Of a stretch of 42,529 nucleotides of DNA, positions 6,741-17,571 are shown in pieces. How positions within the stretch are numbered: the first letter of the stretch is position 1; every line of letters starts with the position of its first letter. The notes beneath the pieces were generated by a model. The model was given only the letters and a program-made list of their open reading frames with translations, was not told the origin of the DNA and searched no databases. The DNA is from Bacteroidales bacterium (GTDB lineage Bacteria > Bacteroidota > Bacteroidia > Bacteroidales > Muribaculaceae). The position numbers and the translations under genes were made by a program. Location: positions 12,931-55,459 of the forward strand of contig JAAVFK010000021.1 of assembly GCA_014800785.1 (NCBI GenBank). Reading direction: 5' to 3'.

Positions 6741-6747
6741 AATATGA

Positions 6748-6797
6748 TTTCAGCCGGAGCCGGATGAAAAAATCCGGTTCCGACTGAAAATTTTTTT
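6748..6797 (+). terminator. Intrinsic terminator or attenuator between rplP and rpmC
   Basis: The arms 6748-6765 and 6772-6789 form 17 pairs of 18 (one C/A mismatch, one G-U) closed by a six-base GAAAAA loop. A run of seven Ts follows at 6791-6797. This is a textbook Rho-independent terminator starting eight bases after the rplP stop. Since rpmC and the rest of the cluster continue on the same strand and I see no consensus promoter in the next 167 bases, it probably acts as a partial terminator or attenuator. Confidence 0.85.
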
Positions 6798-6964
6798 GCC
6801 CCGGCATACAATAAGAGTGCCGTGGCTGACGTTATGAAAAATGGCTGTGTGTGCCACGCCCGGACCCGAACGAAGCCGAATCGTCTGAACCTCGGTTTTA
6901 AGACACCGCGCTTCTGGAAGTGAAGAGCAGGGCAGATGCAGATCAAAATAACAATAATTCAACA

Positions 6965-8169: not shown

Positions 8170-8717
8170 TGAGCAGCACAACACTCGCAAAAGACTATAA
8201 GGAGCGTATCGTTCCCGAACTCACCGAAGAGTTCAAATATACTACCCCCATGCAGGTTCCGCGCCTCGAGAAGATCGTGATCAACCAGGGTCTCGGCGCT
8301 GCAACCCAGGATAAGAAACTCATCGAGACCGCTATCAACGAGCTCACCGCCATCACCGGCCAGAAAGCCGTTCCCACCGTCTCGAAGAAGGATATCGCCA
8401 GCTTCAAGCTGCGTAAGAAAATGCCGATCGGCGCTATGGTAACCCTGCGTCGTGAAAAGATGTACGAATTCCTGGAGCGTCTCGTTCGCGTGGCTCTTCC
8501 CCGAATCCGTGACTTCAAGGGCATCAACGCCAAGCTCGACGGCCGTGGCAACTACACCCTCGGCATCACCGAGCAGATCATCTTCCCCGAAATCAACATC
8601 GACAGCGTGCCCAACATCAAGGGTATGAACATCACTTTCGTGACTTCTGCCGACACCGACGAGGAAGGCTTCGCTCTGCTCAAGAAGTTCGGCCTCCCCT
8701 TCAAGAAAGAGAACTAA
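8169..8717 (+). CDS. rplE: 50S ribosomal protein L5
   Basis: L5 binds 5S rRNA together with L18 and forms the B1b bridge to S13 in the 30S head. The 182-residue product has the signatures [14 protein letters not shown] and [19 protein letters not shown]. The start codon overlaps the rplX stop by one base. Confidence 0.97.
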
Positions 8718-8753
8718 TCATCTTCAACAAAGAATTTTTTATCCGCACACAAT

Positions 8754-9056
8754 ATGGCAAAAGAATCAATGAAAGCGCGTGAGGTGAAGCGTCAGCGCAT
8801 GGTAGCCAAGTATGCCGAGAAGAAAGCCGCCCTCAAAAAGGCTGCTCTTGCCGACGAAAACGGCAATATCGACTACGAGGCCCTCACCAAACTTCAGAAG
8901 CTCCCGAAGAACGCTTCGAAAGTTCGCCTCCACAACCGCTGCACCATCACCGGCCGTCCGAAAGGCTTCATGCGTCAGTTCGGCATCTCTCGTATTCAGT
9001 TCCGTGAGATGGCATCTGCCGGTCTGATTCCCGGTGTTAAGAAAGCCAGCTGGTAA
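8754..9056 (+). CDS. rpsN: 30S ribosomal protein S14, zinc-free form
   Basis: S14 contacts S10 and S3 in the 30S head. The 100-residue product is the long, zinc-free form. The region that carries a CxxC pair in zinc-binding S14 reads [20 protein letters not shown], with one cysteine only. The C-terminus [11 protein letters not shown] is typical. It is the last r-protein gene before the intruding membrane-enzyme gene and is followed by a hairpin terminator. Confidence 0.96.
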
Positions 9057-9103
9057 TCTTAGAAACGACGATGTCGGTCTGTCCGGCATCCCGACAATAT
9101 CGT

Positions 9104-9133
9104 CACCCCGCCTCCGCTTTCGGAAGCGGGGTG
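9104..9133 (+). terminator. Hairpin terminator downstream of rpsN
   Basis: The outer stem CACCCCGC/GCGGGGTG (eight pairs), one C/A mismatch and the inner stem TCCG/CGGA close a CTTT loop. The following ATTCTGTTTCTT is moderately T-rich. A second weaker stem-loop lies just upstream (about 9066-9103). Together they should reduce read-through from the ribosomal cluster into the next gene. The T-tract is imperfect, so efficiency is uncertain. Confidence 0.65.
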
Positions 9134-9176
9134 ATTCTGTTTCTTATCGTTCATGCCTCCGCTTTCGGAAGCGGGG
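9110..9176 (+). repeat. Two direct copies of a 22-bp hairpin core
   Basis: The 22 bases at 9110-9131 recur exactly at 9155-9176, 45 bases apart. Each contains the self-complementary CCGCTT/AAGCGG pair around TCGG. The first copy is the 3' part of the rpsN terminator. The second lacks the 5' CACC extension and sits just before the next start codon, followed by CCTCTTTT. It looks like a duplicated terminator core, perhaps made when the neighbouring gene was inserted. Confidence 0.7.
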
Positions 9177-9204
9177 CGATCCTCTTTTATTCAAGAAAAC
9201 TTAA

Positions 9205-10911
9205 ATGAAATTTAAGCGCATCAAGGAGTTTTTTCATCGGATATTCACGCCGGAGACCGTCTTCTTCGGGTTTCTGATTCTGCTGTTGATACCGAATATA
9301 CTTCTCAGCTATACTGAGAATCTGAAGCCCGTGGCGGTCGCGGCCAATATACTCGCGCCCCTCGGAGTCTACGCCTTCCTGATGACGCTGTCCAAGAACC
9401 TCGGGCGATCGATGTGGATATTCCTGCCGATCGTTCTGCTGGCTATTACCCAGATTGTTCTTCTCACTCTTTACGGGCGCTCGGTCATAGCGGTCGATAT
9501 GTTCCTGAACATCACCACAACGAATGGTGAGGAGAGCGGTGAGCTATTCGGGAGCATATTCCCCATCATCGTTCTGGTCGCCATGTTGTATCTTCCTTCT
9601 CTAATTGTGGGAGTGTGGATGTGGAAGAAAAACATACATCTGCCATCCATGTTTCGAAGGTACATGAGAATTATCTCCATGATTGTAGCATTGAACGGAA
9701 TCGCATGCGGATTCATAGCCGGCGCGACTGATCATGCCTACTCGATGAGGAATGATCTCTATCCCGTGAACGCTGCCTATAACATGACGCTCGCAGCCAA
9801 GCACAGCTACCGGATAGCTGACCATGAAGATGCGGTCCGTGACTTCAGATTTGATGCTGTCTGTCATAGGCCCGACTCTCTAAAGGAATTATATGTAATA
9901 GTAATAGGGGAGACCTCACGAGCGGACAACTGGCAGGTCTGCGGCTACACGCGTGAAACGAATCCCCTGCTCTCGAAACGGACCGATCTTCTTGCGTTTC
10001 GGAAAGCTCTCAGCGAATCGAATACGACACACAAAAGCGTGCCTCTTCTTCTTTCGCATCTGACTGCAGAAAACTATGGCGACTCCATCTATAATGTCCG
10101 CAGTATAATCACCGCCTTCAAGGAGGCCGGATACTCTACCGCCTTCATTTCAAATCAGACCCCCAACAACTCGTTCATCCAATTCTTTGGAGAGGAGGCT
10201 GACGACATAGACTACATCTGTCAACACGGATCGCATTGTGACACGGATCTGCTGCCACATCTTGACAAGTTGCTTGAAAAGGGGAACAGACGACAGCTGG
10301 TGATCATTCATGGCTACGGATCGCATTTCAGCTATCGAGACCGTTATCCGAGATCGGAAGCGCATTTCGTACCGGACACCTACAAGGAGATGGGTGTGCA
10401 GTGGAAGGCCGAGCTGATAAATGCCTATGACAACTCGATACTCATGACGGACCGTTTGCTTGACGGCGTGATTGAGCGGCTTGAAAACTCCGGCGCCGAT
10501 CTTTCGGCCATGATATTCACCGCTGACCACGGCGAGGATCTCTACGACGACGGCCGAGGGCTGCTTCTTCACTCGTCGCCATGTCCGACCTTCTACCAGC
10601 TTCACGTCCCCTTTCTCGTCTGGCTCTCTCCCGGATTTGCAGACGAACCGACCGGTGTAAGAAAGAACCTGACAGCCAATATCAACTCAGGACTCTCGTC
10701 AAGCCTGAGCCTGTTCGACACGGCAATGGATATAGCCGCCATAACCACCGCGCGTTCGCCGTTGAGATGGTCACTCGCGCGTCCCGACTACTCCGCACCG
10801 TCCCGATGCTATCTCAATGACCACAACCATTCGGTGACCCTGCGTCAGAGCGGATTCATAGACATAGATTTCAGGCATCTTGACGATATGGAGAGTGGCA
10901 AAAGTCGGTGA
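9205..10911 (+). CDS. Membrane phosphoethanolamine transferase (sulfatase superfamily, EptA-like)
   Basis: A predicted inner-membrane enzyme that transfers phosphoethanolamine to lipid A or another glycan on the periplasmic side. Residues 1-190 hold about five membrane segments (for example ETVFFGFLILLLIPNILL). The periplasmic catalytic domain follows, with VIGETSRADNWQVCGY around residue 230 (conserved Glu and nucleophile Thr), HGYGSHFSYRDRYP, and ADHGEDLYDD, which supplies metal ligands. At 568 residues it is the usual size for EptA/EptB relatives. It interrupts the ribosomal cluster between rpsN and rpsH, behind a terminator and ahead of a new promoter, so it is expressed apart from its neighbours or by read-through. 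I see no consensus promoter of its own. The exact acceptor substrate cannot be read from sequence. Confidence 0.85.
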   Translation: MKFKRIKEFFHRIFTPETVFFGFLILLLIPNILLSYTENLKPVAVAANILAPLGVYAFLMTLSKNLGRSMWIFLPIVLLAITQIVLLTLYGRSVIAVDMFLNITTTNGEESGELFGSIFPIIVLVAMLYLPSLIVGVWMWKKNIHLPSMFRRYMRIISMIVALNGIACGFIAGATDHAYSMRNDLYPVNAAYNMTLAAKHSYRIADHEDAVRDFRFDAVCHRPDSLKELYVIVIGETSRADNWQVCGYTRETNPLLSKRTDLLAFRKALSESNTTHKSVPLLLSHLTAENYGDSIYNVRSIITAFKEAGYSTAFISNQTPNNSFIQFFGEEADDIDYICQHGSHCDTDLLPHLDKLLEKGNRRQLVIIHGYGSHFSYRDRYPRSEAHFVPDTYKEMGVQWKAELINAYDNSILMTDRLLDGVIERLENSGADLSAMIFTADHGEDLYDDGRGLLLHSSPCPTFYQLHVPFLVWLSPGFADEPTGVRKNLTANINSGLSSSLSLFDTAMDIAAITTARSPLRWSLARPDYSAPSRCYLNDHNHSVTLRQSGFIDIDFRHLDDMESGKSR

Positions 10912-10965
10912 AAAGGGGAATCAGACTAAAAAATCATTAAAATTATGAATTTTAGCGCCGAAAAA

Positions 10966-10997
10966 TTTGTCTAAGTGAGTGATTTTTGCTAATTTCG
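10966..10997 (+). promoter_or_regulatory. Bacteroidetes-type promoter for the rpsH half of the spc cluster
   Basis: A TTTG (-33 box) at 10966-10969, a spacer of exactly 20 bases, then TAATTTCG at 10990-10997, one mismatch from TAnnTTTG. The predicted transcription start is near 11003, giving a roughly 220-base leader. It supplies transcription after the terminator downstream of rpsN. Confidence 0.65.
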
Positions 10998-11188
10998 CGG
11001 CGTAAAGTGATCATTGCGCCCATGTCGTGACATGTATAGCGCAAATCTGCTGAAAGGGTCGCTTCCGGTTTCGGGATGTCCAATGGGGTGGACACGAAGA
11101 TGCCGGTGGTGGCGTTTGATGCAGACTTTGTGTGTATAAGTCGGTGACAATGAGTCGACAATGGTGCTTTTACAAGAGAGTATTAAAT

Positions 11189-11212
11189 ATTGTCCGGTAC
11201 ATCCGGATCAAT
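11189..11212 (+). promoter_or_regulatory. Bulged hairpin just upstream of the rpsH start
   Basis: ATTG + TCCGG pairs with CCGGA + CAAT around a TACAT loop, with one bulged T on the 3' arm (nine pairs). It ends 14 bases before the rpsH ATG, where it could occlude initiation. Since S8 represses the spc operon in E. coli by binding a hairpin resembling its 16S site, an S8 target is a reasonable guess, but no S8-specific core was confirmed. Confidence 0.5.
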
Positions 11213-11226
11213 TTAACAACACAACA

Positions 11227-11625
11227 ATGACTGATCCAATAGCAGATTATTTGACCAGACTGCGAAACGCCATCCACGCCGGACACCGCGTGGTGGAGAT
11301 TCCGTCCTCAAAGATGAAGAGAGAGATCACCAAGATTCTCTTCGAGCAGGGCTACATCCTCAACTACAAGTTCATGGAGGGTGAAACTCCGTCGGGCACG
11401 ATTAAGATCGCCCTCAAGTACGATCCCGTTGACAAGGTCAACGCCATCAAGAACCTGCACCGTGTGTCTCGTCCCGGTCTCCGCCAGTATTGCGGCTACA
11501 AGGACATGCCCCGCGTGTTGAACGGACTGGGTATCGCCATTCTTTCGACCTCGCGCGGTGTAATGACAAACAAGGAAGCCAAAGAACTCAAGATCGGCGG
11601 CGAAGTATTGTGCTACGTTTATTAA
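11227..11625 (+). CDS. rpsH: 30S ribosomal protein S8
   Basis: S8 is a primary binder of the 16S central domain and a known autorepressor of spc operons in proteobacteria. The start MTDPIADYLTRLRNA gives 132 residues, the family norm. An upstream ATG in frame has no homologous sequence. The C-terminal GVMTNKEAKELKIGGEVLCYV is the S8 signature. It follows the inserted membrane-enzyme gene and has its own promoter and structured leader. Confidence 0.96.
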   Translation: MTDPIADYLTRLRNAIHAGHRVVEIPSSKMKREITKILFEQGYILNYKFMEGETPSGTIKIALKYDPVDKVNAIKNLHRVSRPGLRQYCGYKDMPRVLNGLGIAILSTSRGVMTNKEAKELKIGGEVLCYVY

Positions 11626-17164: not shown

Positions 17165-17571
17165 TCTCGTCTCTGAGGAGGCCCGCCCCTGCCGTCGGAT
17201 CCCTTCGGGCTCAGGCCCGGTAGAGATATCCGGCGAAGAGGAATGGCCGGAAGCGCGCCCCATTGCTGCGGGGAACAGCACTTCCGAAGCCATGAGGCAA
17301 GAGGATGATAAGGTAACGGCCCGCGTGTCGTTCCGATCCTTCCCCAGGTGTGCCCGTAATACAAAAATGGATCCGATCCGGGTCTGCCGGTGACGGCGAC
17401 GCGGTGTGATCCGCAAAGTAACAAACAACAACTTTTCGAATCATCCGGACGCTTCCCCGCTGAAGCCGAAGGTGATTATCGGAGGTAATTAAATCTTCAT
17501 CCGGCAACTCCCCCTCAAACGAAGCCCTATAGGAAGGGCGGGGGAGATGCCAACCCAATCAAGCAACAAAA
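17165..17571 (+). promoter_or_regulatory. 407-base structured leader upstream of rpsD
   Basis: No credible gene here. At least four stem-loops can be drawn. (1) CGTCGGAT/ATCCGGCG (17193-17200 with 17228-17235) enclosing CGGGC-TCAG-GCCCG. (2) CGGAAG/CTTCCG (17248-17253 with 17281-17286) enclosing CCCC/GGGG. (3) AATCA-CC/GGTGATT (17439-17446 with 17471-17477) enclosing GCTTC/GAAGC. (4) GGCA-CTCCCCC/GGGGGAG-TGCC (17503-17514 with 17540-17551) enclosing GCCCT/AGGGC, ending 20 bases before the rpsD ATG. S4 is a classical autoregulator that binds a structured mRNA leader, so an S4-responsive leader is the leading explanation. No consensus promoter or U-tract was seen. The stems are direct observations; the ligand is inferred. 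Confidence 0.7.

Follow-up and report, generated by a model that had tools for sequence, protein, structure and literature searches.

The genes rpsN and rpsH are normally adjacent, in a ribosomal protein (r-protein) block that is normally unbroken. In the stretch of Muribaculaceae (Bacteroidales) DNA analyzed here, 42,529 nucleotides in length and referred to as the window, they are separated by positions 9057–11226, a span that begins right after the rpsN stop codon (9056) and runs up to the true start of rpsH (ATG at 11227, MTDPIADYL). A longer rpsH reading frame beginning at 11161 was rejected as an in-frame extension by chance, the start at 11227 being set by conservation with relatives. 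Within the span lies ept, an intact open reading frame of 568 codons oriented in the same direction as both neighbors, and on either side of ept are predicted regulatory features (Table 1).

Table 1. Features of the rpsN–rpsH junction and its flanking genes, in window coordinates.
Feature	Positions	Strand	Evidence
rpsN (uS14), closes the upstream r-protein segment	8754–9056	+	NCBIfam NF006477 above cutoff
22-bp near-palindromic core, copy 1; terminator-like hairpin, weak U-tract	9110–9131	+	Fold, repeat search, terminator scoring
22-bp core, copy 2; terminator-like hairpin, tail CGATCCTCTTTT, ends ~27 nt 5' of the ept start	9155–9176	+	
ept, EptA-type phosphoethanolamine transferase, 568 aa, private cargo	9205–10911	+	Pfam, catalytic residues, 5fgn match
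Bacteroidetes-type promoter TTTG-N20-TAATTTCG (consensus TTTG ... TAnnTTTG, one mismatch)	10966–10997	+	Motif scan
Long imperfect hairpin where the rpsH transcript is predicted to start; can be aligned with the leader of a near relative (G261)	11005–11170	+	
Conserved rpsH leader hairpin TTAAATATTGT-stem-AT[C/T]AATTTAA, candidate S8 autoregulatory leader	11183–11216	+	Covariation, model searches
rpsH (uS8), opens the downstream r-protein segment	11227–11625	+	Profile match; start by conservation with relatives

The ept product matches the Pfam families Sulfatase (1.6e-45; 156.2 bits against a gathering threshold of 25) and EptA_B_N (9e-8; 32.6 bits against 22.3), as well as solved EptA/MCR structures (Neisseria 5fgn, E 2e-36). 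Alignment to 5fgn reveals that the catalytic threonine and metal ligands (E236, T275, H374, D441 and H442), which are conserved among homologs of the family, are all present. These properties are common to the EptA and MCR phosphoethanolamine transferases; however, the protein falls under all NCBIfam curated cutoffs for those families (192.5 bits against 500 for phosphoethanolamine--lipid A transferase), and we therefore refer to it as EptA-type rather than as EptA or MCR, with lipid A as its putative substrate. As cargo, the gene is in itself ordinary.

Between rpsN and ept, a 22-bp core (GCCTCCGCTTTCGGAAGCGGGG) occurs twice. With two mismatches allowed, no further copy exists in the 2.5-Mb genome, and the core was therefore rejected as a dispersed repeat. 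The tandem stretch folds far better than shuffled sequences (z −5.1), and both copies score as terminator-like, with clear hairpins and poor U-tracts (tails TGATTCTGTT and ATCCTCTTTT). An initial annotation of this DNA had described a terminator with a duplicated core; the duplication holds as a unique and strongly folding pair, but because the U-tracts are weak the designation as terminator is only moderately supported. Promoters recognized by sigma-ABfr carry TTTG at about −33, a spacing of 19–21 nt and TAnnTTTG at −7 (PMC7366714). No promoter for ept was found within two mismatches of the consensus in positions 8700–9240. Given that ept lacks a recognizable promoter and that the second hairpin lies ~27 nt before its start, read-through from the ribosomal operon past the tandem hairpins is the likeliest source of an ept transcript, and expression by this route would be low and tied to ribosomal transcription.

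On the rpsH side of ept, TTTG-N20-TAATTTCG (10966/10990) is the sole such promoter site in the interval; the + strand of the 42.5-kb window has nine in all, this one included, when up to one mismatch is tolerated. The predicted transcript start region that follows folds with z −4.4 to −5.2. A sigma-70 promoter scan gave matches no more often than chance would, which is the expected outcome in this phylum. The TTTG-N20 promoter and structured leader that the initial annotation had placed between ept and rpsH were thus recovered, the leader folding much better than its shuffles.

The most conserved element of the interval, which the initial annotation had not singled out, is a 34-nt hairpin (TTAAATATTGTCCGGTACATCCGGATCAATTTAA) directly before rpsH. 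Its outer part is invariant across 42 aligned sequences and near-invariant elsewhere, and its apical stem varies freely yet keeps pairing. Among the 42 distinct sequences, 546 of 546 cells are paired (100%) and 40 two-sided changes occur, against 9.1 in shuffles; all slid versions performed far worse. Because the initial choice of sequences used a pattern in which much of the outer part was preset, selection accounts for some of the invariance there; neither the apical covariation nor the model searches are affected. A covariance model found the hairpin exactly once in this genome and in one copy in each of 79 genomes of the genus, always directly before rpsH. Across the order it was found in one copy each in at least 32 of 198 Bacteroidales genomes, and at all 30 of the order-wide loci checked it lies 9–14 nt before rpsH. 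A phylum-wide search found it in at least 3 of 297 genomes, all of them Bacteroidales, absence elsewhere being weak evidence. In Rfam 15 the hairpin has no match at the gathering threshold and none at E up to 5. Our literature search found no paper describing an rpsH/S8 leader in Bacteroidetes; S8 is not represented among the 20 leaders listed by Eckert and Weinberg in 2020 (PMC7247131), and a review names no S8 leader outside E. coli-like systems (PMC10931766). The hairpin is apparently an undescribed RNA element.

The most economical interpretation of this element is an autoregulatory leader of rpsH, with S8 as the putative ligand. The S8 operator of the E. coli spc mRNA is likewise a hairpin in the spc operon, and in a hand alignment five positions of the window's hairpin match the S8 core (G597, U598, A640, U641 and C643), with similar bulges around the G597-C643 and U598-A640-like pairs. 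A642 of the S8 site in 16S rRNA (helix 21), which is invariant and critical (PMC4176348), has no clear counterpart, and strict mimicry of the 16S site is therefore not established. The E. coli operator also differs in being located at rplE, whereas the hairpin described here precedes rpsH and is confined to Bacteroidales in these scans. (The rpsN–rpsH gap of E. coli K-12 is 33 nt.) Another parallel is the S4 leader of Bacteroidia (PMC7247131), also a hairpin that precedes the opening gene of an r-protein segment (rpsD-rpoA-rplQ) in the same cluster and the same class, but at a different junction and with a different ligand. For the rpsH hairpin, a possible, if doubtful, alternative to an S8 operator is an element for translation initiation or mRNA processing, of use to bacteria whose initiation does not depend on Shine-Dalgarno pairing. 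A location 9–19 nt before the rpsH start codon and the missing A642 equivalent are consistent with such a role; however, a hairpin found once per genome and only at rpsH is unlike a general initiation element, and five positions match the S8 core in the hand alignment.

We surveyed the rpsN–rpsH junction in 111 genomes of the same genus (family Muribaculaceae), 75 of which carry both genes on one contig. The gap measures 66–503 nt in 67 of these genomes and 1.3–12.6 kb in the remaining eight; it is 52–58 nt in Bacteroides and 54–136 nt in other Bacteroidales checked order-wide. Apart from ept in the window genome, the long gaps contain an argG-C-D-F-B-E-H operon for arginine biosynthesis (G165 and G245), a nonribosomal peptide synthetase (NRPS) with MatE, a phosphopantetheinyl transferase and a SpoIIE-type sensor (G230), a threonine-aldolase-like enzyme either alone (G174 and G050) or with large secreted proteins (G126), and secreted proteins (G161). 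Four further genomes (G229, G209, G173 and G210), in which rpsN and rpsH lie on separate contigs with 0.9–4.8 kb of other sequence behind rpsN, probably carry cargo as well. In a tree of concatenated cluster proteins the cargo lineages, these four included, are separate, with cargo-free sisters between them; because their contents also differ, the pattern suggests at least eight separate acquisitions at this junction. No integrase or transposase was recognized among the cargo open reading frames listed there, and insertion of a mobile element was rejected on this basis. Insertions never fall between the conserved hairpin and rpsH, and the hairpin is kept in all cargo genomes. The probable cargo of G173 (L150), a GH31 glycosidase with a CBM26 starch-binding module and a secreted protein, lies on the opposite strand and is the only antisense cargo seen.

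Within all that was searched, ept occupies this junction in the window genome alone; none of the other rpsN–rpsH junctions measured across the genus contains it. In a tree of Ept proteins the three homologs from the genus are polyphyletic, and that of the window groups with another genus at ~50% identity. On these two grounds ept was rejected as an ancestral trait of the genus, and its insertion, which is real and recent, is probably a horizontal acquisition. The closest relatives of ept on plasmids are from Bacteroidales plasmids (37–45% identity), which makes mobility of the gene plausible; this comparison found no donor. The insertion proposed in the initial annotation is therefore upheld by gene order in relatives, and it is not an ancient arrangement shared by most Bacteroidales.

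Of 75 genus genomes, 35 have the −7 motif TAnnTTTG between rpsN and the rpsH hairpin, where 5.8 would be expected; the 17 gaps shorter than 140 nt all lack it. All eight cargo genomes carry the promoter motif between cargo and rpsH, counting the one-mismatch form of the window (Fisher p = 0.002; 0.02 without counting the window), an association that, the genomes being related, does not represent a set of independent trials. In nearly all cases a hairpin lies at the predicted transcript start 3' of the motif (34 leaders, mean z −4.1), with compensatory changes where the leaders can be aligned. The near relative G261 (L203) has a cargo-free junction of 433 nt in which a strong terminator and TTTG-N20-TAATTTTG are present; its leader can be aligned to that of the window above shuffle level (51 versus at most 34). 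Given that all eight cargo genomes have the promoter and that G261 has terminator, promoter and leader without cargo, the operon appears to have been split first. As a prediction, the data support two transcription units that predate ept, with foreign DNA having come in between terminator and promoter, and from these motifs and folds we infer actual termination and initiation at the junction. The initial annotation had r-protein transcription split in two by the arrangement around ept; the split stands as a prediction, but it appears to be older than the insertion.

As a control, gap lengths were determined in the same genus genomes for all 29 junctions between rpsJ and rplQ. Inserts of more than 1 kb were found only at rpsN–rpsH and, twice, at rplP–rpmC. 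The median gap is 45 nt or less at 25 of the 29 junctions, leaving four wide ones: rpsJ–rplC, rplP–rpmC, rpsN–rpsH and rpsK–rpsD. Neither rpsK–rpsD (median 163 nt), which is the site of the known S4 leader of Bacteroidia (PMC7247131), nor rpsJ–rplC (93 nt) contains a gene insert of more than 1 kb. By median lengths rpsN–rpsH makes up ~24% of intergenic DNA, the chance expectation for insertions; six of eight events fell there (p = 0.003 under the intergenic-length null), a significant but modest excess. The junction might be viewed as a passive target that collects inserts as one of few long non-coding gaps, with the promoter and hairpins non-causal and ept neutral. Its share of intergenic DNA and the inserts at rplP–rpmC, also a long gap, agree with this view, but the excess over the length null, the two wide junctions that lack gene inserts and the presence of the promoter in every cargo genome render it unlikely.

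The initial annotation had further suggested that envelope modification may be coupled to growth rate. If ept had been recruited so that envelope modification tracks growth rate via read-through of an attenuating tandem hairpin, a codirectional gene without its own promoter, starting just behind the second hairpin and intact in all catalytic residues, would be expected, as is found. However, the arrangement occurs in this genome alone, other cargo has no envelope theme, and the G173 set lies on the opposite strand, which together make selected coupling improbable. Some growth-rate coupling of ept is possible as a consequence of read-through, but since relatives carry unrelated cargo (arginine synthesis, NRPS, secreted proteins) at the same site, the junction is better described as a tolerated landing site than as a designed link. 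Although the genome is a 48-contig draft, a false join of ept between rpsN and rpsH is highly improbable given comparable inserts in the independent assemblies of relatives, a promoter and leader to the right of ept that align to those of the near relative, and uniform base composition (GC 0.514 versus 0.529–0.540).

Together, these observations suggest that in Bacteroidales the S10-spc-alpha cluster is divided internally by a regulatory boundary at the rpsN–rpsH junction. The hairpin before rpsH would mark this boundary and most likely lets S8 repress its own segment (rpsH-rplF-rplR-rpsE and onward), either directly or via a ribosome-blocking complex. Many lineages of the genus may then have gained two further parts, a terminator following rpsN and, ahead of the leader, a sigma-ABfr promoter together with a 5' hairpin, by which rpsH would be freed from transcription from upstream. 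DNA arriving between terminator and promoter would leave essential expression unbroken, and the site would tolerate foreign genes because transcription of rpsH had been made independent of upstream; unrelated genes could in this way have been taken up at least eight times. In the window genome, the EptA-type cargo would have been acquired horizontally and is probably expressed weakly, through transcription that leaks past the two tandem hairpins. We assign this explanation as a whole a probability of roughly two in three. The insertion, the hotspot, the covarying conserved hairpin, the promoter motif and the empty site in a near relative are computational observations. For the combined claim that an S8-bound hairpin leader controls rpsH and the genes behind it in Bacteroidales, and that a promoter of its own made this internal junction, which lies in the most strongly conserved operon cluster of bacteria, a recurrent docking site for horizontally acquired genes in the genus, we consider the odds about even.

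The significance of the locus lies more in the recurrent docking site and the conserved leader hairpin than in the lipid-modifying gene. Near-invariant and single-copy across many Bacteroidales families, the hairpin offers a small and direct target for tests of S8 control in gut Bacteroidetes. The proposed sequence of events would also illustrate how an essential operon can open without loss, with regulation localized first and foreign DNA arriving afterwards. Foreign genes are likewise housed in the ribosomal cluster in the core-operon insertions of Gammaproteobacteria and Bacilli (tusDCB, bfd-bfr and nrdHEF; PMC8046335). The examples described there are located at operons or between them and go back to the common ancestors of large groups, whereas here one internal spc junction has been struck repeatedly, with differing cargo, within one genus.

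Several minor features of these junctions were also recorded. At rplP–rpmC, the gap in the window (6741–6964) contains a strong terminator-like hairpin with a T7 tail (~6749–6797) after rplP, a second apparent operon break. The two inserts at that junction comprise 2.9 kb with an IS5-like transposase-type open reading frame (G086/L187) and 1.1 kb with a Sel1-like open reading frame (G162/L208), both named by eye. The rpsK–rpsD gap of the window (17165–17571) is 407 nt, against the genus median of 163 nt. The rpsN–rpsH gaps of L170, L174, L040 and L063 contain a further leader type of the genus, CGTTATAAGAATTGGTGAC-stem-GTCTCCAAT with a second hairpin behind it, and a GC-rich element, GGGTAAGCCCCATATCTGCGGGACCCCCCGG, that looks structured or repeated recurs in this gap at several Muribaculaceae loci (L078, L097, L100 and L105). 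Another family, Dysgonamonadaceae (L124), likewise has an insert at rpsN–rpsH, an AT-rich gap of 1.6 kb with a small lipoprotein-like open reading frame.
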